Source: a virus | DNA: 24,009 bases | IMG/VR virus record: IMGVR_UViG_3300012924_000027 | Location: 1-24,009 of that record | Strand: one strand, 5' to 3' | Part shown: piece after piece, positions 2,859 to 12,039 of the stretch | Layout: every line of letters starts with the position of its first letter | Numbering within the stretch: the stretch's first letter is position 1 | The notes under the pieces: model-generated | The model's database searches: none | Seen by the model: only the letters and a program-made list of their open reading frames with translations | What the model was told of the DNA's origin: nothing | Translations under genes and position numbers: made by a program

Positions 2859-2889
2859 TCGCTCCTGATGATCCGTTCCGGATGTGATC

Positions 2890-3078
2890 ATGACGGGCAT
2901 GTCGCCCGAGTACGTCTCCACGCCCGTCGCGGCCAAGGCGCTAGGGATAGGAAAGACGACGCTCGGCGTGTGGGCGCGCGAGGGCAAGGTGACGCCGGCC
3001 TACATCACGCCGGGCGGCCAGTACCGGTGGGATCTCGATGACCTCCGCCGGCAGCTCGGCATCAGGACGCAAAAATAG
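2890..3078 (+). CDS. MerR/BldC/excisionase-like DNA-binding protein
   Basis: A 62-residue protein consisting almost entirely of a MerR-type winged helix-turn-helix (HTH_17 class). STPVAAKALGIGKTTLGVWA forms the HTH with its recognition helix. It is followed by REGKVTPAYITPGGQYRW, the beta-hairpin wing with the characteristic GG-x-YRW turn, then a short closing helix (DLDDLRRQLG). The size matches the stand-alone DNA-binding proteins BldC and phage excisionases rather than full MerR regulators; there is no effector or dimerisation domain. The start is uncertain: GTG 2884, ATG 2890 and ATG 2899 are all in frame, and GGA at 2880-2882 best suits 2890. It is divergent from the Cys/His gene across a 9-bp repeat array, its likely operator. 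It could be a transcriptional regulator or a recombination directionality factor; no integrase is in the window to favour the latter. Confidence 0.8.
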   Translation: MTGMSPEYVSTPVAAKALGIGKTTLGVWAREGKVTPAYITPGGQYRWDLDDLRRQLGIRTQK

Positions 3079-3148: not shown

Positions 3149-4225
3149 CTAGCGAGCAGTGACGAGCGGGACCGCCGCAGTGTCATAACGGAGTTGGCCG
3201 TTACCGGTGAGCCCGGTCGCCCGAAAGGGATTGCCGAACTTCGAGCTGCAGCTGTCGTAGGAGACCTGCAGCGGCGCTATCCCGGTGACACCGTGCCAGC
3301 CGCCGAGCTCGCAGTCTCGGTAGGCAATGCGGGCCGGGCCGCGGTAGGTAGCGGTCTGCCCGTTGCCGACCTTGAACGCGTTCGCCGTGTCGGACAGCCC
3401 GTCCCAGACGACATGCCCGGCCGCTCCCCAGCTGCAGTCGATCAGGCGGGAGTCCTTCGAGCGGAGCTCGGCGCGGACCCCGGTCGCATGGAACATCTGC
3501 ACACCGTCGGCGTGCGGTCCCGGCCCAAGCACGACCATGGTGCCGGCCGGGACACCGTCGTTGGACTGGCCGGTGTGTAGCCAGGAGTTGAAACCGTCGA
3601 TCGTGACGCAGCCGCCGTAGTCGAACCGGAGATACGTGCCGTGGCTACCCTCGAGCTTCGAGTTCCGGATCGAAAAATTGACCGCCTGGTCCTCTTGCGG
3701 ATGGCCGGGTGTCATCCCGGACCACAGCCATGCGTTCGAGAAACTCGCGTCGTTGCTCAACGCCGGCTGGTCGAAGGCGATCTCGGAGTTGAGGTTCGCC
3801 GTGGCCGGGCCGTTGAGGCCGACGCCGTATGCCCACGAGCCCATCCATTCGCACCGCTTGAAGAGTCCGTCCTGGTTGGATGCTGCGACGGAGGAGAGGA
3901 AGTACAGGCCGCCGGCGTTCGGGGTCGCGGACTGGAACGTCAGGTCCGCGAACTCGAAATTACGCAGCTGCCCCCGCGCGGCCAGCATCGGCTCGGTCGA
4001 GGCCCATTGCAGGATGGTGCCGCGTTTCCGGCCGCCCCGCCACCGCACGCCCTGCAGCTGCCCGGTGTCGGGTGGGAGGAGCGAGGTGAGGAGTTTCGCG
4101 GTGCCGGTGAAGTCGAATACCAGGTCGGTGCGCATCATCCCGGCCGCGGTCTTGTCCGCGAGCCATGCCTTGATGCCGGCCTGCACCGCAGCGTCGGTGG
4201 GTTCGGTGATGACGGTCGCGGTCAT
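3149..4225 (-). CDS. Beta-helix tail adhesin, last gene of late operon
   Basis: A 358-residue protein. The ATG at 4225 (MTATVITEPTDAA) overlaps the upstream stop as ATGA, so longer in-frame extensions are rejected. After a short helical start (about 1-45) the protein is a run of short beta strands with repeated Asn/Gly/Asp turns and phrases such as VRWRGGRKRG, FEFADLTFQS, FKRCEWMGS, FSIRNSKLEG, VTIDGF and RLIDCSWG. That pattern is typical of a right-handed parallel beta-helix as in pectate lyases and tail spikes. No catalytic triad can be assigned by eye. Position at the end of the tail-fibre cassette suggests a receptor-binding or glycan-degrading tail component; an enzymatic activity is inference. 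Confidence 0.65.
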   Translation of the reverse strand: MTATVITEPTDAAVQAGIKAWLADKTAAGMMRTDLVFDFTGTAKLLTSLLPPDTGQLQGVRWRGGRKRGTILQWASTEPMLAARGQLRNFEFADLTFQSATPNAGGLYFLSSVAASNQDGLFKRCEWMGSWAYGVGLNGPATANLNSEIAFDQPALSNDASFSNAWLWSGMTPGHPQEDQAVNFSIRNSKLEGSHGTYLRFDYGGCVTIDGFNSWLHTGQSNDGVPAGTMVVLGPGPHADGVQMFHATGVRAELRSKDSRLIDCSWGAAGHVVWDGLSDTANAFKVGNGQTATYRGPARIAYRDCELGGWHGVTGIAPLQVSYDSCSSKFGNPFRATGLTGNGQLRYDTAAVPLVTAR

Positions 4226-4587
4226 GGCGTATAGAGCAGGTCGTGCAGGTTCCCGCCGCCGTCGGGGACTTGGATGGTCCAGGTGCTCGCGCCTTCCCGG
4301 ATCCGGTAGTACGAACCGGCGGCGAGGCCACCGGTCGGGTACAGGTTCAAGATCCACAGGCCGGTGGAGTCGGTGACGGCGGTGGCCCAGTTGACGATCT
4401 CCCGGCCATCAGGCAGCCACGGGTTCGAGCTGACCAGTTGGGCGTAGACGGTCAGGCCGACATCGGGTGATCCGTTGGGTTTCACCAGGATGTTCGTCAC
4501 CGGGACGGCTTCCAGTGACACGACGGTGCTGCCCGGCAGCGCGAGCCCTGGCATGGCGATGCCGGGATAGGCGGCAGTGATGGTCAT
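4222..4587 (-). CDS. Small beta-sandwich tail protein
   Basis: A 121-residue protein starting at the ATG that overlaps the upstream fibre stop (ATGA). It is almost all beta: LPGSTVVSLEAVPVTNILV, VGLTVYAQLVSS, a Trp-containing segment (NPWLPDGREIVNWATAVT), DSTGLWILNLYP and SYYRIREG, ending VPDGGGNLHDLLYTP. The layout resembles carboxypeptidase-regulatory/Cna-B-like folds used in phage fibres. It resembles the first 120 residues or so of the larger fibre at 7883-9895 (compare STTGVFTVNLIP and DWYYDVHITG), as if that N-terminal domain existed here as a separate chain. A virion-attachment or chaperone role for the neighbouring fibres is plausible but unproven. Confidence 0.6.
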   Translation of the reverse strand: MTITAAYPGIAMPGLALPGSTVVSLEAVPVTNILVKPNGSPDVGLTVYAQLVSSNPWLPDGREIVNWATAVTDSTGLWILNLYPTGGLAAGSYYRIREGASTWTIQVPDGGGNLHDLLYTP

Positions 4588-6686
4588 GGCAGCAACGTCC
4601 ACGCCCACGACGGGGCCGCGGAGTAGGTGAGGGTGATGGTGTGGCCGCCGGGGACGATGAACGTGCCGGCCTGGACGAGTTGATCGGTGGCGTCGATCTT
4701 CGTGTTGGCGGTCATGGTGCCGCCGGCCACGACGACGGCCGCGGTCCGGCGGTAGGTGTTGGTGAATGCGACCGTGGTGGCGGGGACGGTCGGGGCGGTC
4801 ATGGGGCCGGTTGGGCGGCGGTAGTTTTTGAAGTTGACGTTCAGGCCGCCGACGATGGTCGGGTCGGTGAGGTCGTAGGACGCCCACCCGATCTCGCCGT
4901 ACAGGGACGAGTTGTTGTCTTTCAGGTGCCCGGATCCGCCGGCTATCAGCTGTTCATTGTCGAACAGGCCGACGAAGATCGGGAATGAGCTGCTCGCCGA
5001 CCCGACGACTTCGATCCCGGTTTTGTAGTATTCCAGGCCGATGTACCGGATGCTCGCGCCGTGGATCGCGGCACCGGGGACGCCGATGAACACGCCGGTA
5101 TTGACGTACAGGAAGCCGAGCCGGTCGGCGTTGAAATGCTCGTTGATCGAGATGCCGTAGTAGAAGCCTTCACAGGTGAACGACTCGACCAGGGATATGT
5201 CGTTGTTGGAGTTCTTCGGCATCGCCAGACCGAGGCTGAGGGAGTTCGTCGGCGTGGTGGTCAGGTTGGGGGCGGTGGCGACGACGGGGATAAACGCTAT
5301 CGCTTTCGCTTCCCGGACCATTGCCGAGGCGCACTGCCGGAAGTCGAAACCGACGAACGACGGGTTCTGCGGGGCGGACACGGTGATGCCGTCGATGATG
5401 ACGAGGATGTTCGAGAACTTGTCATTCGAGCCGACACCGCCGTTGTAGTTGGGTCCCGGGCCGCCAATGATGGACGGGTCACCCCAGGTGCCGTCGGTGG
5501 TCTGCCCCGTCAGTGTGGTCAGGATCGTGGTGCCGTCGTGTTGCGGAACGGTCTGGTTCCAATGCGAGTACGCGGCGGAGGACAGGCCGTGCAGGACGAG
5601 GGTGACCTTGTGGACGGTCGAGATGACCAGCGGTAGCGGGATGATGGCGTTACCCAGCGACGCGGCGTCGCCCTTCGTCAACGGGCCGTTGCAGAAGTAC
5701 AGCTTCGACTGGAACCACACGTCAGCCCGGAACGTGCCGGCCGTCTGACAGTTCGTAACAGCAGTCGCCAGTGCGGCCTTGATGGCGGCGGTGTCGTCCG
5801 TGCCGTACACGGTCCGGGCACCGGAGACAGTCGTACCCGCTGTCGTGGCCAATGTGACGGTGGATGAGTTGGTGAATCCGGTGATCGTGGTTGTCAGCTG
5901 CGCGGCGGCCGCACCCGCCCCGGCGACGGTGATGGCCTTCCCGACGTCCCCGGATATGAATACTGCGGTGGCACTCGTGAACGTCGCGGTGGCGGTGGTA
6001 ATAGCACCGTCGTAGATGACCTTCGCATCCCCCTTCGCGCCGGAGTCCTCGACATACACCCGGGCGCCCTTGATCTGCGCCATGGACGCGAGCGTCGCCC
6101 CGGACAGGTTCGCCAGTGCCGTCGCCGGACTGGCGACGTCGGACAGGTTCGACGCGCGTTGGTTTGATGCCGCGATCGCTGCCGCCTGCGCCGCTGTGGC
6201 CGCACCGTTCGTATCGAACGCCCCGGTATTCGCTACTGCGGCGGTGCCGAGCCCGAGCGATGTCCGCGCCGTGGCTGCGTTGGTGAGGTCGACAAGGTTG
6301 CTGGCCTTCTGCAGCGCGCTGGCCGTGGCCGCATTGGCCTTCGTGGTCGCATCCGTGGCAGCAGCGGAGATCGCGGCCGACTGGGCGTTACCGGCCTTGG
6401 TGGTGGCGTCGGTCGCGGCTGCCGATATTGCTGCGGACTGCGCACCGCTCGCCTTCGTCGTCGCGTCCGTAGCCGCCGCGGACTGCGCCGCTGCTGCCGC
6501 CCCGGACGTGTCGAAGTCTCCGGCCGGATGATCGGCCGCCGTACCGAGCGCATTGATCGCAACGATGGCTTCGACGATCGCCTCGTCGCGGGCCAACAAT
6601 TCGGCCCCGGAAATCGCGACCGCAGTGGACGACGGATAGTCGGTGTAGTCGGTCCGGACAGGCGTGTACGGGGTGATGCTCGGCAT
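4584..6686 (-). CDS. Tail fibre with Ala-rich repeats and pectate-lyase-like beta-helix
   Basis: A 700-residue protein. The ATG at 6686 (MPSITPYTP) has AGGAG eight bases upstream; extensions to earlier starts are rejected. Residues 1-60 are a short N-terminal attachment segment. Residues 62-130 form an Ala-rich helical stalk with 19-residue repeats built on AQSAAISAAATDATTKA. Residues 128-200 hold phage-fibre repeats (KASNLVDLTNAATARTSLGL). From about 204 (QIKGARVYVEDSGAKGD) begins a pectate_lyase_3-like parallel beta-helix, with about 60 inserted residues (230-293, VFISGDVGKAITVAGAGA) before the GTDDTAAI motif. A C-terminal beta domain ends SAAPSWAWTLLP. From about 330 on it is a clear paralogue of the 670-residue fibre at 7883-9895. 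The expected role is host receptor binding, possibly with glycan cleavage. Confidence 0.8.
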   Translation of the reverse strand: MPSITPYTPVRTDYTDYPSSTAVAISGAELLARDEAIVEAIVAINALGTAADHPAGDFDTSGAAAAAQSAAATDATTKASGAQSAAISAAATDATTKAGNAQSAAISAAATDATTKANAATASALQKASNLVDLTNAATARTSLGLGTAAVANTGAFDTNGAATAAQAAAIAASNQRASNLSDVASPATALANLSGATLASMAQIKGARVYVEDSGAKGDAKVIYDGAITTATATFTSATAVFISGDVGKAITVAGAGAAAAQLTTTITGFTNSSTVTLATTAGTTVSGARTVYGTDDTAAIKAALATAVTNCQTAGTFRADVWFQSKLYFCNGPLTKGDAASLGNAIIPLPLVISTVHKVTLVLHGLSSAAYSHWNQTVPQHDGTTILTTLTGQTTDGTWGDPSIIGGPGPNYNGGVGSNDKFSNILVIIDGITVSAPQNPSFVGFDFRQCASAMVREAKAIAFIPVVATAPNLTTTPTNSLSLGLAMPKNSNNDISLVESFTCEGFYYGISINEHFNADRLGFLYVNTGVFIGVPGAAIHGASIRYIGLEYYKTGIEVVGSASSSFPIFVGLFDNEQLIAGGSGHLKDNNSSLYGEIGWASYDLTDPTIVGGLNVNFKNYRRPTGPMTAPTVPATTVAFTNTYRRTAAVVVAGGTMTANTKIDATDQLVQAGTFIVPGGHTITLTYSAAPSWAWTLLP
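6330..6488 (-). repeat. 57-bp coding repeats in the fibre stalk
   Basis: Two full 57-base units (6387-6443 and 6330-6386) encode AQSAAISAAATDATTKAGN and a near-identical copy. A shorter third unit (about 6444-6488) encodes AQSAAATDATTKASG. The DNA copies are diverged at third positions, so the repeat is old or selected at protein level. It forms the presumed coiled, Ala-rich stalk of the tail fibre. Confidence 0.75.
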
Positions 6687-6697
6687 GGGAGTTTCTC

Positions 6698-7855
6698 CTA
6701 CTGGGTGACTGCGTGGCCAGCATTGGGGCCGTCTGCCCAAACGTTCCCGGACCAGGTGGCACCAGACACGGGATAGGCGACCGGCCCGTAATAGCCGCCC
6801 TTGGCGGCGTACCGGGTCGTGAACTGGTTGTTCGTGAATGCCATGTTCGGTGGGTTCGGGATCCCGGAGTGGTCGCCGCCGCCCTCGTAGATGACGTATC
6901 CGCCGCCGCCGAGCAGGTTGTTATCGACGGTGTGGTTTCCCTGCGATCCGCCGTCCTCGTAGAACGCGACTGCGGAATTCTGCCCCAACTGGTTCAGCAG
7001 TGTGTTGTGTCGCACGATTAGCGGTTCCGGCCCGGCCGAGCCGGATAGGACGGCGTTGACGTGGTCGTTGCCTTGACTGGCGAGGTTGTGGACGTAGTTG
7101 TCCTGCACCAGGCCGGAGTTGGTTTGGATGCCGCAGGACGCATCGGCGATGTCGTTCGCAAGGATCTTCGTGCCGGTCGAGTCGAAGAAGATATCTTTGA
7201 TGCCGGCGGTGAGCCGGCCGGTATCGGTGCCGCCGCTGGGTTGCATCGCCGATATTTGGTTGTGTTCGATGGTGGCGTTCTTCGCATGCCGCAGTTCGAT
7301 ACCGAAGTTGTTCCCGCCGCCGCCGAGGAATTGCACAATATTGTTGGAGACGGTGACGTTCGCGCCGGTGATCTGCACCGTTTCCGACACCTGGTAGCCG
7401 GTGAACACGGCACCGTTACCGGAGATGATCACGTTGCCGTTGACGACTTTCCAGCCCGCGCCGGAGGTAATGTCTTCCGGTACCCGCTGGACCGGTTTCC
7501 CCGCTAGTACGCCGGTCGTGGATGCGTCGGGGTAATCACCGGATGGCGGCGTGGTTTCGGAGGCGCTCGGGCTGGTCGGCGGTGCCGTGGTTGGCGGGAT
7601 TGTCGTCGGCGGGACGGTGGTCGTAGCCGGCGGGGTCGTCGGTTCGGTTGTCGGCGCCGCCACGCACGCCAGCGGCGACACGACACCGGCCAGGATGGAG
7701 AAGCTGCAAGTCTGGTCGCCCTGCACGGATCCGCCGGTCTGCCCCGATGCGGTGAGGGACAGCGTCACGATGGCGCCGAGCGCTACGCCGGCAACACTGG
7801 ACGCGATCGTGATGGACCGTTTACGCCGGTCGAGTTTTTGGGCGTGCTTCGCCAT
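6698..7855 (-). CDS. Signal-anchored beta-helix protein
   Basis: A 385-residue protein with GAGGAG eight bases before its ATG. Residues 1-13 are basic (MAKHAQKLDRRKR), 14-36 are hydrophobic (ITIASSVAGVALGAIVTLSL), giving a signal peptide or signal anchor. Two cysteines follow in 49-64 (TCSFSIL, PLACVAAP), then a Thr/Pro-rich linker at about 66-105 (runs of TTPPA, TVPPTTIPP), and a parallel beta-helix to the end. The helix shows repeated Asn-rich turns: VTVSNNIVQF, ATIEHNQISA, LIVRHNTLLN, HTVDNNLLGG, MAFTNNQFTT. This is the carbohydrate-binding or lyase-like fold, without a recognisable catalytic set. A secreted or surface-anchored protein between two virion fibre genes is unusual. It could be a host-surface display protein, or a fibre-related protein with a hydrophobic N-terminus that is not exported. 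Confidence 0.75.
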   Translation of the reverse strand: MAKHAQKLDRRKRSITIASSVAGVALGAIVTLSLTASGQTGGSVQGDQTCSFSILAGVVSPLACVAAPTTEPTTPPATTTVPPTTIPPTTAPPTSPSASETTPPSGDYPDASTTGVLAGKPVQRVPEDITSGAGWKVVNGNVIISGNGAVFTGYQVSETVQITGANVTVSNNIVQFLGGGGNNFGIELRHAKNATIEHNQISAMQPSGGTDTGRLTAGIKDIFFDSTGTKILANDIADASCGIQTNSGLVQDNYVHNLASQGNDHVNAVLSGSAGPEPLIVRHNTLLNQLGQNSAVAFYEDGGSQGNHTVDNNLLGGGGYVIYEGGGDHSGIPNPPNMAFTNNQFTTRYAAKGGYYGPVAYPVSGATWSGNVWADGPNAGHAVTQ

Positions 7856-7882
7856 GGCAAGTCTCCTCGTGATGTGTGCGGG

Positions 7883-9895
7883 CTACACGCCCCGCGCGAT
7901 CCAGACCCACGTCGGGGCGGAGGAATAGTCGACCTCGATGGTGCGGTTGTTCGGTACCGTCACATGACCGGTCGCGATCGGCAGGGCCGCACCGTCGACC
8001 TTCAGTCCCGTCAATGTTCCGGTGATGTAGACGTCGCAGTCCCGGAAGTACGGGTTCCGCAGCGGCACGGTTGTGGCCGGTACTGACGGGGGTCCGACGA
8101 CGCCCTGTGCGATCTGGTAATTCTTGATCGACACATTCGTTGCACCCACGACCACGGGTGCAGTCAGCTGATAGTCGGACCAGCCGATTTCGCCATAGAT
8201 CGCCGAATGCGGGTCGTTGAAATGCCCGGCACCGCCGGACAGTTTCGACTCGAAATCGAACAGGCCAATGTTCACTGGGAACTGTGAGCTCGATGTGACG
8301 CCGCCGACTTCCCAACCGGTCTTGAAGAACTCGCATCCGATGTAGCGGATCGATGCGCCATGGATCGGGGCACCGGCGATGTTGGAGTACAGGGCCGTGT
8401 TGATATACAGGAACCCGATACGGCCGGCGTTGAAATGCTCGGTGAACGACAGGCCGTAGTACCAGCCCTCGATCGTGACGTTGTCCATCCAGGAAATGTC
8501 GTTGTTGCCGGTGTTCGGCATCCCGATGGCGAGACTGTTCGAGTTCGTCGGGATCGTCCCGAGCGTGTTCGGTGCCGTACCGATCACGGGAACGTTCGCG
8601 ATCAGGGCACAGTCCCGGAACATCGCTGACGCGATCTGCCGCGCATCGACACCCACGAACGACGGATTCACGGGAACGTTGAAGTCGATCCCGTCCACAA
8701 CCAGCAGCATGTTGTTGAACTTGTCCGTCGCCCCACCGCCCCCGTTATAAGACGGGCCGGGGCCGCCGATGATCGACGGATCACCATACGTACCGTCCGG
8801 GGTCAAACCGGTCAGCGTCGTTTTGATGACGGTGCCCGTGGTCTGCGGGACCGTCTGCAGCCAATGCGAATACGCCGCCGACACACCCGAACCCTTGAAC
8901 GCCAACGTCACCTTCGCCGCCGTCGACGCAATGATCGGCACAGGCAGGATCGCATTACCCAACGTCGCGCCACCGATCACGGGACTGCCGTTGACCAGGT
9001 ACGTCTTCGCCTGAAAATGCACCTCGGCGTAATTGCTGCCCGTCGACGACGCTGCCGCCACCGCCGCGTTGATAGCGTTCCGGATCGACGTCGTGTCATC
9101 GGTGGTGCCGTTCCCGACAGCGCCGTAATCCTCGACGTAAATCTTCGGGCCTTTGAGTTGCGCCACACCGGCCGTGACAGCCGCTGCTGCGCCGGCTGGG
9201 TCGAACGCGGAGGATGCCTGCGTCGCCGCAGACCCCAACCCGAGGTTCGTCCGCGCCGTGCCAGCGTTCGCCAGGTCCGACAGGTTGCTGGCCTTCAGCA
9301 GCACATCGGAGGTGGCTGGTGAGCCGATATCCGACGGCCCTAGGGTGATCGTCGGACCCGAATGGCCGTTGACGGATACGACCGAACCCGACGCGTTACC
9401 GGGCGTCCACTTCTGCGTGGTCGAATTCCAGGCCGGGACTTGACCGTTCGTCGCCGGGGTCGTGTTGTCGAAATCGGCGAGTTGCGTCAACGCGATCGGG
9501 TTGAGCGTGTTCGGGGGTATCCCGTCGGGCTGGATCAGGGCCGCCAATTTCAGCGTGCCCTGGTCGTGGACGACGACGCATTTCTCGGTGTAGTCGAGCG
9601 GCTGCGGCGTCGAAGCATTGTCCATGCCGGTGATGTGGACGTCGTAATACCAGTCGATCGGTGTCTCGTCGGGGTCGTCCGTGGGGATCAGGTTGACCGT
9701 GAACACGCCCGTCGTGGAGTTTGTAGTGCACGTCGGGACGCTGGTCGTCTTGTAGAAGATCGACCCGTCCGTCGGATCGGCGACACGGTTGATCGACGGC
9801 GTGAATTTCATCAGCGCCGATTTCAGCGGGACATCGTTCCAGTCGAGCAGCGTCCCGGAAACGGCCGCCGCGGGGAGGTTACCGGGATATGCCAT
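7883..9895 (-). CDS. Tail fibre with N-terminal beta domain and beta-helix, paralogue of 4584-6686
   Basis: A 670-residue protein; the ATG at 9895 has AGGA seven bases upstream. Residues 1-120 form a carboxypeptidase-regulatory-like beta domain (VSGTLLDWNDVPLKSALMKF, TTGVFTVNLIP, DWYYDVHITG). Residues 128-200 link through ALTQLADFDNTTP and VVSVNGHSGPTITLGPSDIG, a common phage-fibre motif. Residues 201-225 carry the KASNLSDLANAGTARTNLGL repeat. A pectate_lyase_3-like beta-helix starts near 247 (LKGPKIYVEDYGAVGNGTTD) and runs to about 600. The C-terminal part matches the 700-residue fibre closely (for example GDPSIIGGPGP, IHGASIRYIG, GEIGW). It lacks that paralogue's Ala-rich stalk and inserted segment. 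Likely receptor-binding tail fibre. Confidence 0.85.
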   Translation of the reverse strand: MAYPGNLPAAAVSGTLLDWNDVPLKSALMKFTPSINRVADPTDGSIFYKTTSVPTCTTNSTTGVFTVNLIPTDDPDETPIDWYYDVHITGMDNASTPQPLDYTEKCVVVHDQGTLKLAALIQPDGIPPNTLNPIALTQLADFDNTTPATNGQVPAWNSTTQKWTPGNASGSVVSVNGHSGPTITLGPSDIGSPATSDVLLKASNLSDLANAGTARTNLGLGSAATQASSAFDPAGAAAAVTAGVAQLKGPKIYVEDYGAVGNGTTDDTTSIRNAINAAVAAASSTGSNYAEVHFQAKTYLVNGSPVIGGATLGNAILPVPIIASTAAKVTLAFKGSGVSAAYSHWLQTVPQTTGTVIKTTLTGLTPDGTYGDPSIIGGPGPSYNGGGGATDKFNNMLLVVDGIDFNVPVNPSFVGVDARQIASAMFRDCALIANVPVIGTAPNTLGTIPTNSNSLAIGMPNTGNNDISWMDNVTIEGWYYGLSFTEHFNAGRIGFLYINTALYSNIAGAPIHGASIRYIGCEFFKTGWEVGGVTSSSQFPVNIGLFDFESKLSGGAGHFNDPHSAIYGEIGWSDYQLTAPVVVGATNVSIKNYQIAQGVVGPPSVPATTVPLRNPYFRDCDVYITGTLTGLKVDGAALPIATGHVTVPNNRTIEVDYSSAPTWVWIARGV

Positions 9896-9904
9896 GTCTG
9901 GGTC

Positions 9905-10234
9905 CTATGCAGCCGGAGGAACGACGGGGGCGTTCGGGTCGAGCGGACCGTCGGGGATGTCGTCGGAATCGACCGTGCCGGCATTCGCCTGCCCGGCCCC
10001 GCCGGTCGCCAGCGCGGCAGCCTTCGCTACGGGAGTGACGTATTGGCGGGCGATGAACGCGATTGCATAGGCGGCAGCGGATGCGAGGCCGGCGAGCTTC
10101 TGCTGGTGAACGGTCGGGTCCCAGCCGGTGTAGACGTAGGTAAAGAACCAGATCGCGACGGCCTGAATGGTGCCGGCGATGTGCACGACCGGCTCATTCG
10201 CGATCTTCCGTAGGAGCGCGCGGAGGGCGTTCAC
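9905..10234 (-). CDS. Holin (r1t-like, two membrane helices)
   Basis: A 109-residue protein whose GTG start overlaps the lysin stop (GTGA). It has two hydrophobic helices, about 18-36 (HIAGTIQAVAIWFFTYVY) and about 46-63 (KLAGLASAAAYAIAFIA). The sequence RQYVTPV right after the second helix is typical of r1t-type phage holins. The C-terminal tail is Asp/Pro-rich and hydrophilic (DSDDIPDGPLDPNAP). Position directly after the muramidase gene fits a lysis pair: the holin opens the membrane so the lysin reaches peptidoglycan. Nothing indicates an antiholin start. Confidence 0.8.
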   Translation of the reverse strand: MNALRALLRKIANEPVVHIAGTIQAVAIWFFTYVYTGWDPTVHQQKLAGLASAAAYAIAFIARQYVTPVAKAAALATGGAGQANAGTVDSDDIPDGPLDPNAPVVPPAA

Positions 10235-11088
10235 TTGGCCAGCGCCTTCAGGCGATTGAAATCGGCATCGGACAACATGACCAGCGGAATGCCGGCGTGC
10301 TTCAACGCCGACGCTGACTCGCCGTCGGCGATGATGGTGACACCTGCCCCGGAAACGAGCAGGTACACACCTTTCGTTGTGGGCTTAGCTACAAACATGT
10401 CGGGGATCTCCTCGTGGGTGGGGGGTTTGGAGCTCGGCGGTGTCGGGGCGCCGTAGGTGAGGTCGGCGAGGGTCTGGGCGCCGACGAGTACGTCCTGGTC
10501 GCAATAGCCAGAAACGCCGGGTACGTGGCCGGTTTCGGTGTATTGCCAGACCGCGGCCTTCGTCCACGGCGCCGGGATCTCGCCCATCGACGGCGCATAC
10601 CGGGAGAGGTAGAGCCGCGATTTCGCACACGTCGTGCAATTCCCGGCGGCCGGTCCGACCTGCGGATTCCACCACCAGGCGCCGGTGTAGATATCGAGGC
10701 GGTATCCGGCCGCCTGCACGACGTCGCGGAAGGTGTGGATCCAGGAATGGATCTGCGACGGCGACCTGCCTCCGGCGCCATCGGGCCCGTAGGGTGAGCC
10801 GTTGTGTTCGATATCCAGGATCGGCTGGAGCATGCCCGGGACCTGGTTCAGATGAGCGAGGAAGCCATTCGCGGACGCGCGGGCATCCAGGTTTGGGTGT
10901 GCCCAGAAATAGCCGCCCACTGGGATGCCGAGCGCGAGCGCGCTGGCCCGGTTTCGCATCCAGGTTGCGTCGGGATATTGGGTGCCTTCGATGACCTTGC
11001 CGTAGGCGAATCGGTTACCCGCAGCCTTCGCTGCCTGCCAGTTGATCTGGCCCTGATAATGCGAAAAATCAAAGCCTTTGACTGTCAT
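10231..11088 (-). CDS. GH25 muramidase endolysin
   Basis: A 285-residue peptidoglycan hydrolase of the GH25 lysozyme family, which cleaves the MurNAc-GlcNAc beta-1,4 bond. The catalytic domain covers about residues 1-210: GFDFSHYQGQINW at the start (D7), the DxE motif PILDIEH (D92, E94, presumed catalytic pair), DIYTGAWWW, LYLSRYA and WQYTETGHV, with a closing CDQDV aspartate (D199). A Pro-rich linker (APTPPSSKPPTHEE) leads to a small C-terminal domain at about 230-285 (MFVAKPTTKGVYLLVSG, LVMLSDADFNRL), probably for wall binding or multimerisation; its family is not certain. The ATG at 11088 is chosen because it overlaps the stop of a 15-codon ORF with a good ribosome-binding site. A TTG at 11118 is possible but poorly placed. 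It is coupled to the holin by GTGA. Confidence 0.9.
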   Translation of the reverse strand: MTVKGFDFSHYQGQINWQAAKAAGNRFAYGKVIEGTQYPDATWMRNRASALALGIPVGGYFWAHPNLDARASANGFLAHLNQVPGMLQPILDIEHNGSPYGPDGAGGRSPSQIHSWIHTFRDVVQAAGYRLDIYTGAWWWNPQVGPAAGNCTTCAKSRLYLSRYAPSMGEIPAPWTKAAVWQYTETGHVPGVSGYCDQDVLVGAQTLADLTYGAPTPPSSKPPTHEEIPDMFVAKPTTKGVYLLVSGAGVTIIADGESASALKHAGIPLVMLSDADFNRLKALAK

Positions 11089-11132
11089 CGCGGCACATCC
11101 GGGGCGCGCGCGACCCAATGCGGTGCGGTCAT
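11085..11132 (-). CDS. 15-codon leader ORF before the lysin
   Basis: GAGGAG lies seven bases before an ATG that opens a 15-codon frame (MTAPHWVARAPDVPR) whose TGA overlaps the lysin ATG as ATGA. It is the only good ribosome-binding site for this junction; the lysin ATG itself has none nearby. The likely role is translational coupling, with the lysin translated by re-initiation. The peptide has no recognisable function. Confidence 0.5.
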   Translation of the reverse strand: MTAPHWVARAPDVPR

Positions 11133-11148: not shown

Positions 11149-12039
11149 TTAGGGCGTAGCGGTATCGCTGGGCCCTGCAGGTGTTTCACTGGTGCACGAA
11201 TACGTCGGGGCGTCGACGGTGCCGCCGGAACGAGTGCAGACATGCACGACGCCGGTATCCGGATCCGTCCACGACCAGCTGGCGATAGGTGGTCCGGTTG
11301 CGCCGGTCTCACCCTGCGCGCCGGTCTCTCCCGGCGGACCACTCGCGCCGGACGGTCCGGATGGGCCCGTGCTGCCCGCTGGTCCGGCGGCGGGCGGGTT
11401 CGCGATCAGATACGCCGCGACCGCGCCAGGAAGGTATTGCTGCACCGCGGTGGCGATCTGCGCATCGGTCGGCGCTGGCCCCTGCACGCCTGTTGCGCCG
11501 GACGGTCCGGGGCTGCCCTCGACGCCCGGCGAGCCCGGCACTCCTGACGGCACTGTGCCGCCGGCCTTCCCCGCTGGTGCGGGATGGGTGCGCAGATACC
11601 GGGCCACATACGAGGCGGCGTCAGCGGTGATCTGGGCGGCCGACACGGGCGGCCTGACGGGGTGCGCATGGAAGTATCGACCAACCGCGGTCTGGACCTG
11701 CGCATCTGTCGGTCCCGGACCCTGCTGACCGGTCGCACCCGACGGACCCGCAACCGTGTATGTCGGCGCCGGTGTCGTCGGGGCTACCCGTGTCGGGACT
11801 GCGGTCGCGTTGCCCTTCGAGATCTCGGCGGCTGGCGGCCCCACCGTGGACAGGTGGTTCGCCTTCAGCTTCGCCTGATTCTGCGCATTCGCGATCGTCT
11901 GCTGCTGCAGGCGGTACGGCAGCGGATCGTTCCGGCCCAGATACTGGAATACCAGCAGAATCAGGGCCACCGTGAACGGTACGAACAGCAGCCACAGACC
12001 GTGATGCACATGCTTCGGCAGGACGGGGCTACGAGCCAT
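11149..12039 (-). CDS. Membrane-anchored collagen-like protein
   Basis: A 296-residue protein. Residues 1-13 are basic, 14-34 form one transmembrane helix (GLWLLFVPFTVALILLVFQY), and 38-62 form a Gln/Asn-rich helix. Three Gly-X-Y collagen-like tracts follow: about 98-108, 165-187 (GVPGSPGVEGSPGPSGATG) and 219-251 (GPAGSTGPSGPSGASGPPGE and on). Between them lie repeated helical elements (PTDAQVQTAVGRYF, AAQITADAASYVARYL, PTDAQIATAVQQYL). The C-terminus is short and beta-like with two cysteines (VHVCTRSGG, TYSCTS). Collagen-like tracts in phages usually make trimeric fibre shafts; an N-terminal membrane helix is unusual for a virion fibre. It starts inside the end of a small membrane-protein gene (11-base overlap) and precedes the lysin, so it could act at the envelope or be a lysis accessory. 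No named family is assigned. Confidence 0.75.
   Translation of the reverse strand: MARSPVLPKHVHHGLWLLFVPFTVALILLVFQYLGRNDPLPYRLQQQTIANAQNQAKLKANHLSTVGPPAAEISKGNATAVPTRVAPTTPAPTYTVAGPSGATGQQGPGPTDAQVQTAVGRYFHAHPVRPPVSAAQITADAASYVARYLRTHPAPAGKAGGTVPSGVPGSPGVEGSPGPSGATGVQGPAPTDAQIATAVQQYLPGAVAAYLIANPPAAGPAGSTGPSGPSGASGPPGETGAQGETGATGPPIASWSWTDPDTGVVHVCTRSGGTVDAPTYSCTSETPAGPSDTATP

Follow-up and report, generated by a model that had tools for sequence, protein, structure and literature searches.

RbmB of Vibrio cholerae is a secreted beta-helix lyase, associated with an exopolysaccharide (EPS) locus, that depolymerises the matrix polysaccharide and disperses the biofilm (PMC11637428). Most of the depolymerases known from phages are spikes on the virion; tailspikes and capsule depolymerases of the HK620, Sf6 and Det7 type are virion trimers without signal peptides. 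Soluble, diffusible phage depolymerases have been reviewed, and extracellular public goods made by viruses are still little known according to the same review (PMC7232179). In an engineered phage T7 carrying dispersin B the enzyme is released by lysis, and this phage has been used to test the upkeep of a free matrix enzyme by selection (PMC4128545). Judged by its sequence, the product of the gene described here belongs to a so far undescribed family of secreted proteins whose genes reside in EPS clusters; this member is carried by a phage.

The gene lies in the window, by which we mean the whole 24,009-nucleotide stretch that was analysed, a 24-kb fragment of an uncultured tailed soil phage (virus record IMGVR_UViG_3300012924_000027). 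Its genes lie almost without exception on the minus strand; among their products are a capsid protein, a tail tube, a tape-measure protein, tail tip proteins, fibres and a GH25 endolysin. Its relevant features, in part defined by comparison with the syntenic phage contig L008, are as follows.

6698 to 7855, minus strand: coding sequence of the probably exported beta-helix protein (385 aa, ATG at 7855), with relatives in viral and bacterial loci
7863 to 7868, minus strand: Shine-Dalgarno-like GAGGAG, 7 nt 5' of the ATG at 7855, read from the sequence
7745 to 7855, minus strand: predicted export signal with basic n-region and hydrophobic core (residues 1-37), from hydropathy and syntenic L008
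7661 to 7744, minus strand: post-signal segment with Cys50 and Cys64 (residues 38-65), common to L008
7538 to 7660, minus strand: Thr/Pro-rich disordered linker (residues 66-106), from composition and the full-length AlphaFold model
6701 to 7537, minus strand: predicted right-handed parallel beta-helix (residues 107-385), from AlphaFold and the family alignment
7055 to 7096, minus strand: conserved polar cluster Y254, H256, H265, N267, from the family alignment
7007 to 7009, minus strand: conserved H283, directly before ladder Asn284, from the family alignment
7883 to 9895, minus strand: upstream tail-fibre/spike gene, matching PHROG tail-spike/fibre families; L008 homologue 53-57% identical
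4584 to 6686, minus strand: downstream tail-fibre gene, matching tail-fibre PHROGs and a pectin-lyase PHROG; L008 homologue 63% identical
10231 to 11118, minus strand: GH25 endolysin, part of this late block of genes (PF01183, E 1.3e-29; PHROG lysis)
9905 to 10234, minus strand: small membrane protein adjoining the lysin, a holin candidate judged solely from where it lies and from a single hydrophobic stretch
3149 to 4222, minus strand: fibre-like protein; in L031 and L203 its homologues directly precede a gene of the beta-helix family

PHROG matches on both sides confirmed that the beta-helix gene sits between two fibre genes, from which it is separated by gaps of 27 bp and 11 bp. A scan of the coding strand between the two fibre genes, covering sigma-70 type promoters only, found no promoter-like or terminator-like site. 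Because the gaps are short and no such site intervenes, it is likely that the gene is co-transcribed with the fibre genes; the co-transcription claimed by the first-pass annotation is thus in keeping with the single gene direction and the spacing, and stands as a likely arrangement deduced from them. The idea that the gene is independent cargo with a promoter of its own was rejected for want of such a site in the sigma-70 type scan. Recent foreign insertion as judged by GC content was also rejected, since the gene (64.1%) does not differ from the window (64.2%).

Other genes of the window may be mentioned here. Just upstream of the endolysin, positions 11149-12039 (minus strand) encode a protein with an N-terminal membrane segment, a Thr/Pro-rich stretch and collagen repeats, possibly a second surface-anchored product of the late block; the same membrane-plus-collagen layout is found in L018:6626-7204, adjoining the endolysin of that contig. 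A membrane-anchored DUF4352 protein with a Ser/Thr/Pro linker is encoded at positions 510-1310 of the other (plus) strand, among the non-structural genes. A short open reading frame at 2884-3078 (plus strand) that looks, by eye, like an excisionase/MerR-like helix-turn-helix hints at a temperate phage.

The layout first read from the letters, namely a basic-hydrophobic N-terminus, a Thr/Pro spacer and an Asn-rich beta-helix, was confirmed throughout by hydropathy, composition, AlphaFold modelling and alignment. The protein begins with MAKHAQKLDRRKRS, followed by a hydrophobic stretch (residues 15-33) whose Kyte-Doolittle value of 1.91 over 19 residues exceeds the usual membrane cut-off. A second hydrophobic stretch (residues about 54-66) was considered as a membrane segment and rejected, because its hydrophobicity is not conserved in L008. 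The L008 and window proteins share the pattern '..LTASGQTG..VQGDQTCSFS..GVVSPL.CV', and many family members have a pair of Cys behind the signal. The linker is 79% T/P/S over the measured stretch (residues about 66-106), and residues 1-107 are disordered in the full-length AlphaFold model. The domain itself, which begins with the family opening motif [FYW]P[DN]A[ST][NT]TG, was modelled as a right-handed beta-helix over residues 107-385 with a pLDDT of 90.9 and a pTM of 0.92 (AlphaFold, 28 relatives). In the family alignment the Asn-ladder positions N284, N313, N343 and N371 are conserved, and the conserved non-structural residues cluster (Y254, H256, H265, D/N267 and H283); position 267 is D in most relatives and N in the window protein and a Cellulomonas-type subfamily, turning H-x-D into H-x-N.

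The window protein had no match in Pfam or PHROGs and nothing above cut-off in NCBIfam. Pfam PF13229 (Beta_helix) did not match it, and scores 33.7 against a gathering cut-off of 25.9 for one relative, L037; a NosD reading (TIGR04247) was rejected at 16.1 bits against a cut-off of 300. Among 50,697 cultured-phage records no match was found for the window protein, even at E = 10, or for four relatives used as queries, and single-sequence scans of IMG/VR and GTDB with the window protein returned nothing. A seed alignment, built from weak plasmid matches (26-30% identity) to secreted beta-helix proteins, recovered 32 IMG/VR loci, and a second alignment recovered more, bringing the viral contigs with the domain to 46 besides the window once near-copies were removed. 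A GTDB scan found 78 bacterial loci with the domain, whose identity to that of the window reaches up to 42%. The first-pass annotation had proposed a search for homologues outside fibre cassettes, and these proved to be many: 61 of 297 sampled genomes of the class Actinomycetes match at E <= 1e-5. With dozens of loci, viral as well as bacterial, sharing both the domain and the layout, neither is likely to be a product of chance. The actinobacterial relatives are annotated 'right-handed parallel beta-helix repeat-containing protein' and the family is otherwise unnamed; we found no published description of it in the open-licence literature.

As judged by inspection of open frames, a signal-like N-terminus accompanies the domain in 37 of the 46 other viral contigs, is absent from six, two of which bear a virion-fibre-like N-terminus, and is unclear or truncated in three. 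An A-x-A motif follows the hydrophobic core in 17 of 22 signal-bearing rows, against a shuffled mean of 11.5 (p 0.003), an enrichment that is modest because these segments are Ala-rich. The bacterial relatives are secreted proteins or lipoproteins, in which a signal or lipobox is followed by an S/T/P linker and the domain. Because the n-region and h-region, the A-x-A pattern and the layout are conserved in relatives, we regard export of the window protein as highly probable. Its own signal has no clean A-x-A; A36-S37-G38|Q39 is a candidate cleavage site, and the signal may be either cleaved there or kept as an anchor. Of the surface display proposed earlier for a 'signal-anchored' protein, the export is therefore upheld by the signals of viral and bacterial kin; the anchoring is not borne out, as most relatives look cleavable and hence secreted. 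The rhizobial relatives (L003, L004, L048-L066) lack a signal peptide. RTX-like repeats point to type I secretion; such repeats occur in the rhizobial L004, near wecB and CpsD-like genes, and export of the rhizobial relatives would take this other route.

The nearest bacterial kin, from Cellulomonas (L037, L040, L042), Microlunatus (L038) and other Propionibacteriaceae (L039), lie in EPS clusters, and further relatives in Nocardioides, Pedococcus, Leifsonia, Cryobacterium and Lentzea share this setting. Their neighbours are polymerase/ligase, glycosyltransferase and sugar-nucleotide genes, with Wzy_C, Glycos_transf_2, Glycos_transf_1, UDP-glucose dehydrogenase, polysaccharide flippase and dTDP-sugar epimerase confirmed by Pfam; Wzz-like neighbours gave no Pfam match, so the EPS argument rests on Wzy_C, the glycosyltransferases and the sugar-nucleotide enzymes. 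We compared 20-kb stretches round the top-scoring match in 20 different genomes, picked by score and not by context, with 20 arbitrary stretches of equal size from the same genomes. A Wzy homologue lay within about 10 kb in 19 of the 20 best-match loci and in none of the 20 controls (Fisher p 3e-10; some genomes may be related), the number of PF04932 copies per genome being 1-6 in the 15 genomes checked. On the same chain as the beta-helix, Pedococcus L045 carries a carbohydrate-binding NPCBM domain and Acrocarpospora L107 a DUF4082 domain. The beta-helix gene is repeated in tandem in the phage contig L024 (7368-9682) and in many bacterial EPS clusters (L147-L152, L156, L158-L160).

The window member resembles this actinobacterial family in domain, opening motif, signal or lipobox with S/T/P linker, and H-x-N/D motif. 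It differs in its place: the family resides in Wzy-type EPS clusters, whereas the window gene has phage genes as neighbours and lies in a fibre/lysis block. Queries from EPS clusters found no EPS-gene homologues in the first 32 viral loci. Because the bacterial relatives reside in EPS clusters, one of them is fused to NPCBM and the His/Asp-Asn cluster is conserved, the target of the window protein is probably a glycan. The setting of the bacterial genes thus speaks strongly, if indirectly, for the earlier supposition that it acts on surface sugar; a catalytic effect of the beta-helix on the sugar coat is putative.

Contig L008 is syntenic with the window over both fibre homologues (53-63% identity), the beta-helix gene, the small 4222-4650 gene and the holin candidate, which there too adjoins the lysin; its GH25 lysin homologue is 66% identical. 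Integrases are encoded further on in the L008 contig and in the L018 contig. Twelve signal-bearing copies, window included, have an endolysin within about 2.5 kb (the others being L008, L011, L017, L018, L025, L029, L034, L195, L204, L205 and L210). Elsewhere the gene is found amid head and tail genes, on contigs whose portal, capsid or tape-measure genes were confirmed; this is the setting of L009, L012, L023 and L035, where the beta-helix gene does not adjoin an endolysin. Between the capsid and beta-helix genes of L012 (3771-7453) lie a methyltransferase-like gene and, directly upstream of the beta-helix gene, sugar genes identified by Pfam, for a GDP-mannose 4,6-dehydratase and glycosyltransferases. 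In L222, L225, L226 and L227 the domain follows a virion-fibre-like N-terminus and a poly-Gly linker, with no signal, and L006, L021, L030 and L032 are also without a signal. The beta-helix module thus appears to serve phages in two ways, as a part of virions and as an exported product.

On a history tree of 71 rows the phage and bacterial copies interleave, with at least 11 label changes, of which six are forced by well-supported branches; the number is eight when only bacterial rows of clear EPS context are kept. Some 'bacterial' rows may be prophages (L072 looks so), and the count was no lower when L072 and L103 were recoded as phage. Because of this interleaving, the tree argues for several transfers of the gene between phages and bacteria.

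Fold comparison (Foldseek, PDB) placed the window protein near a GH87 glucanase, the RbmB lyase, the AlgG epimerase, chondroitinase B and phage tailspikes, with no match reaching E 1e-3 (best E 1.9e-3, TM about 0.5 at best), and an hmmsearch of PDB gave a best E of 0.06. No catalytic class is assigned because no PDB match reaches E 1e-3, and a GH28-like reading was rejected for lack of a significant match. RbmB, the second-best PDB fold match, is a right-handed beta-helix that is secreted and associated with an EPS locus, and appears to be the closest functional analogue; however, it is bacterial, shows no significant homology in sequence or fold (Foldseek E 2.4e-3, TM 0.33), and catalysis is proven for RbmB only. 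Phage tailspikes share the beta-helix fold and are encoded with tail fibres, but they are virion trimers, and in the window protein an export signal followed by a disordered linker takes the place of a virion-binding domain. It does not look like a typical virion tailspike, because a virion-attachment N-terminal domain, sought by hydropathy and AlphaFold, was not found. Like the diffusible depolymerases and dispersin B of T7, the window protein would be a free enzyme made by the phage, a public good that acts on the matrix; whereas dispersin B leaves by lysis, it would use host Sec before lysis, and its enzymatic activity is putative. By analogy, it would work most like a free depolymerase or matrix-remodelling protein, and we do not file it as a depolymerase because no catalytic family matched.

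We therefore favour, with a probability of about 0.5, a Sec-exported, glycan-directed beta-helix captured from actinobacterial EPS or capsule clusters and made late with the fibre and lysis genes. Late transcription with the fibres is suggested by the close spacing and common direction of the genes; the N-terminal signal, judged by its conservation, would then lead the protein to Sec, and the disordered Thr/Pro linker would span the wall or protrude from it. Once outside, the beta-helix may bind, and probably cleave or modify, the host extracellular polysaccharide. The sugar coat of the dying cell and its neighbours would thus be loosened, and progeny could escape without sticking to the glycan that the fibres recognise. 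That release and spread of progeny is the purpose falls somewhat short of an even chance. Further points in favour of this explanation are the polysaccharide enzymes among the fold neighbours, the endolysins close to twelve signal-bearing copies and the synteny with L008. Against it speak the lack of a recognised catalytic family, the N where H-x-D usually has D, the want of a clean A-x-A in the window signal, the signal-less relatives that look like virion fibres and the copies that do not adjoin an endolysin; the protein might also remain attached to the cell without ever being released. A broader scenario is more tentative still: repeated capture, by phages of actinobacteria, of a host EPS-cluster enzyme that serves as a Sec-secreted late public good and not as a virion-bound depolymerase, opening the sugar matrix before and at lysis, with the domain also placed on virion fibres in some lineages.

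The protein might instead be a virion component, a third fibre or tip protein with its hydrophobic N-terminus buried in an attachment site. The position of its gene between two virion fibres would suit this, as would the beta-helix being the commonest phage spike fold, the structural-type N-terminus of the domain in L222 and L225-L227, the signal-less L006, L021, L030 and L032, and the several signal-bearing copies among head and tail genes. Residues 1-107 are, however, predicted to be disordered, unlike an attachment domain, and the conserved n-region, h-region and A-x-A, the paired Cys that follow and the same layout in non-phage bacterial kin all point to export; we consider a virion role unlikely. 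A probable surface location, the link to glycans and nearby fibres that probably bind the same surface would also accord with superinfection exclusion or receptor masking, an idea already raised in the first-pass annotation: kept on the infected cell, the exported protein would hide or change the glycan receptor, and sibling phages would fail to adsorb. Apparent late expression would limit its use against early superinfection, and many relatives look cleavable and hence secreted, which makes this quite improbable.

Temperate phages of Gram-positive bacteria often place cargo genes next to lysis genes. Lysogenic conversion, with a cargo gene beside the lysis genes shaping the EPS matrix of the lysogen to its benefit, would fit the integrases of L008 and L018 and the several copies that form the last gene of a late block. 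The window gene, by contrast, lies inside the fibre operon (11-27 bp gaps) with no promoter- or terminator-like site of its own in the sigma-70 type scan, and its GC content is not atypical, so we hold conversion to be distinctly improbable. Repeated exchange between phages and bacteria, with at least six label changes forced by well-supported branches, could even mean that the gene was captured from a host not long ago and is a neutral hitchhiker, playing no selected role in the window phage. Yet the gene is intact in every full-length phage copy, the polar cluster is conserved, the same cassette is found in the diverged L008 and the gene recurs beside lysis genes, all of which leaves this very improbable indeed.

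A widespread natural signal-bearing family beside endolysins would make the public-good question directly testable. About one in five of the sampled actinobacterial genomes has the undescribed family, which appears to be a standing part of EPS clusters and gives a hint as to the surface sugar that these uncultured phages encounter.
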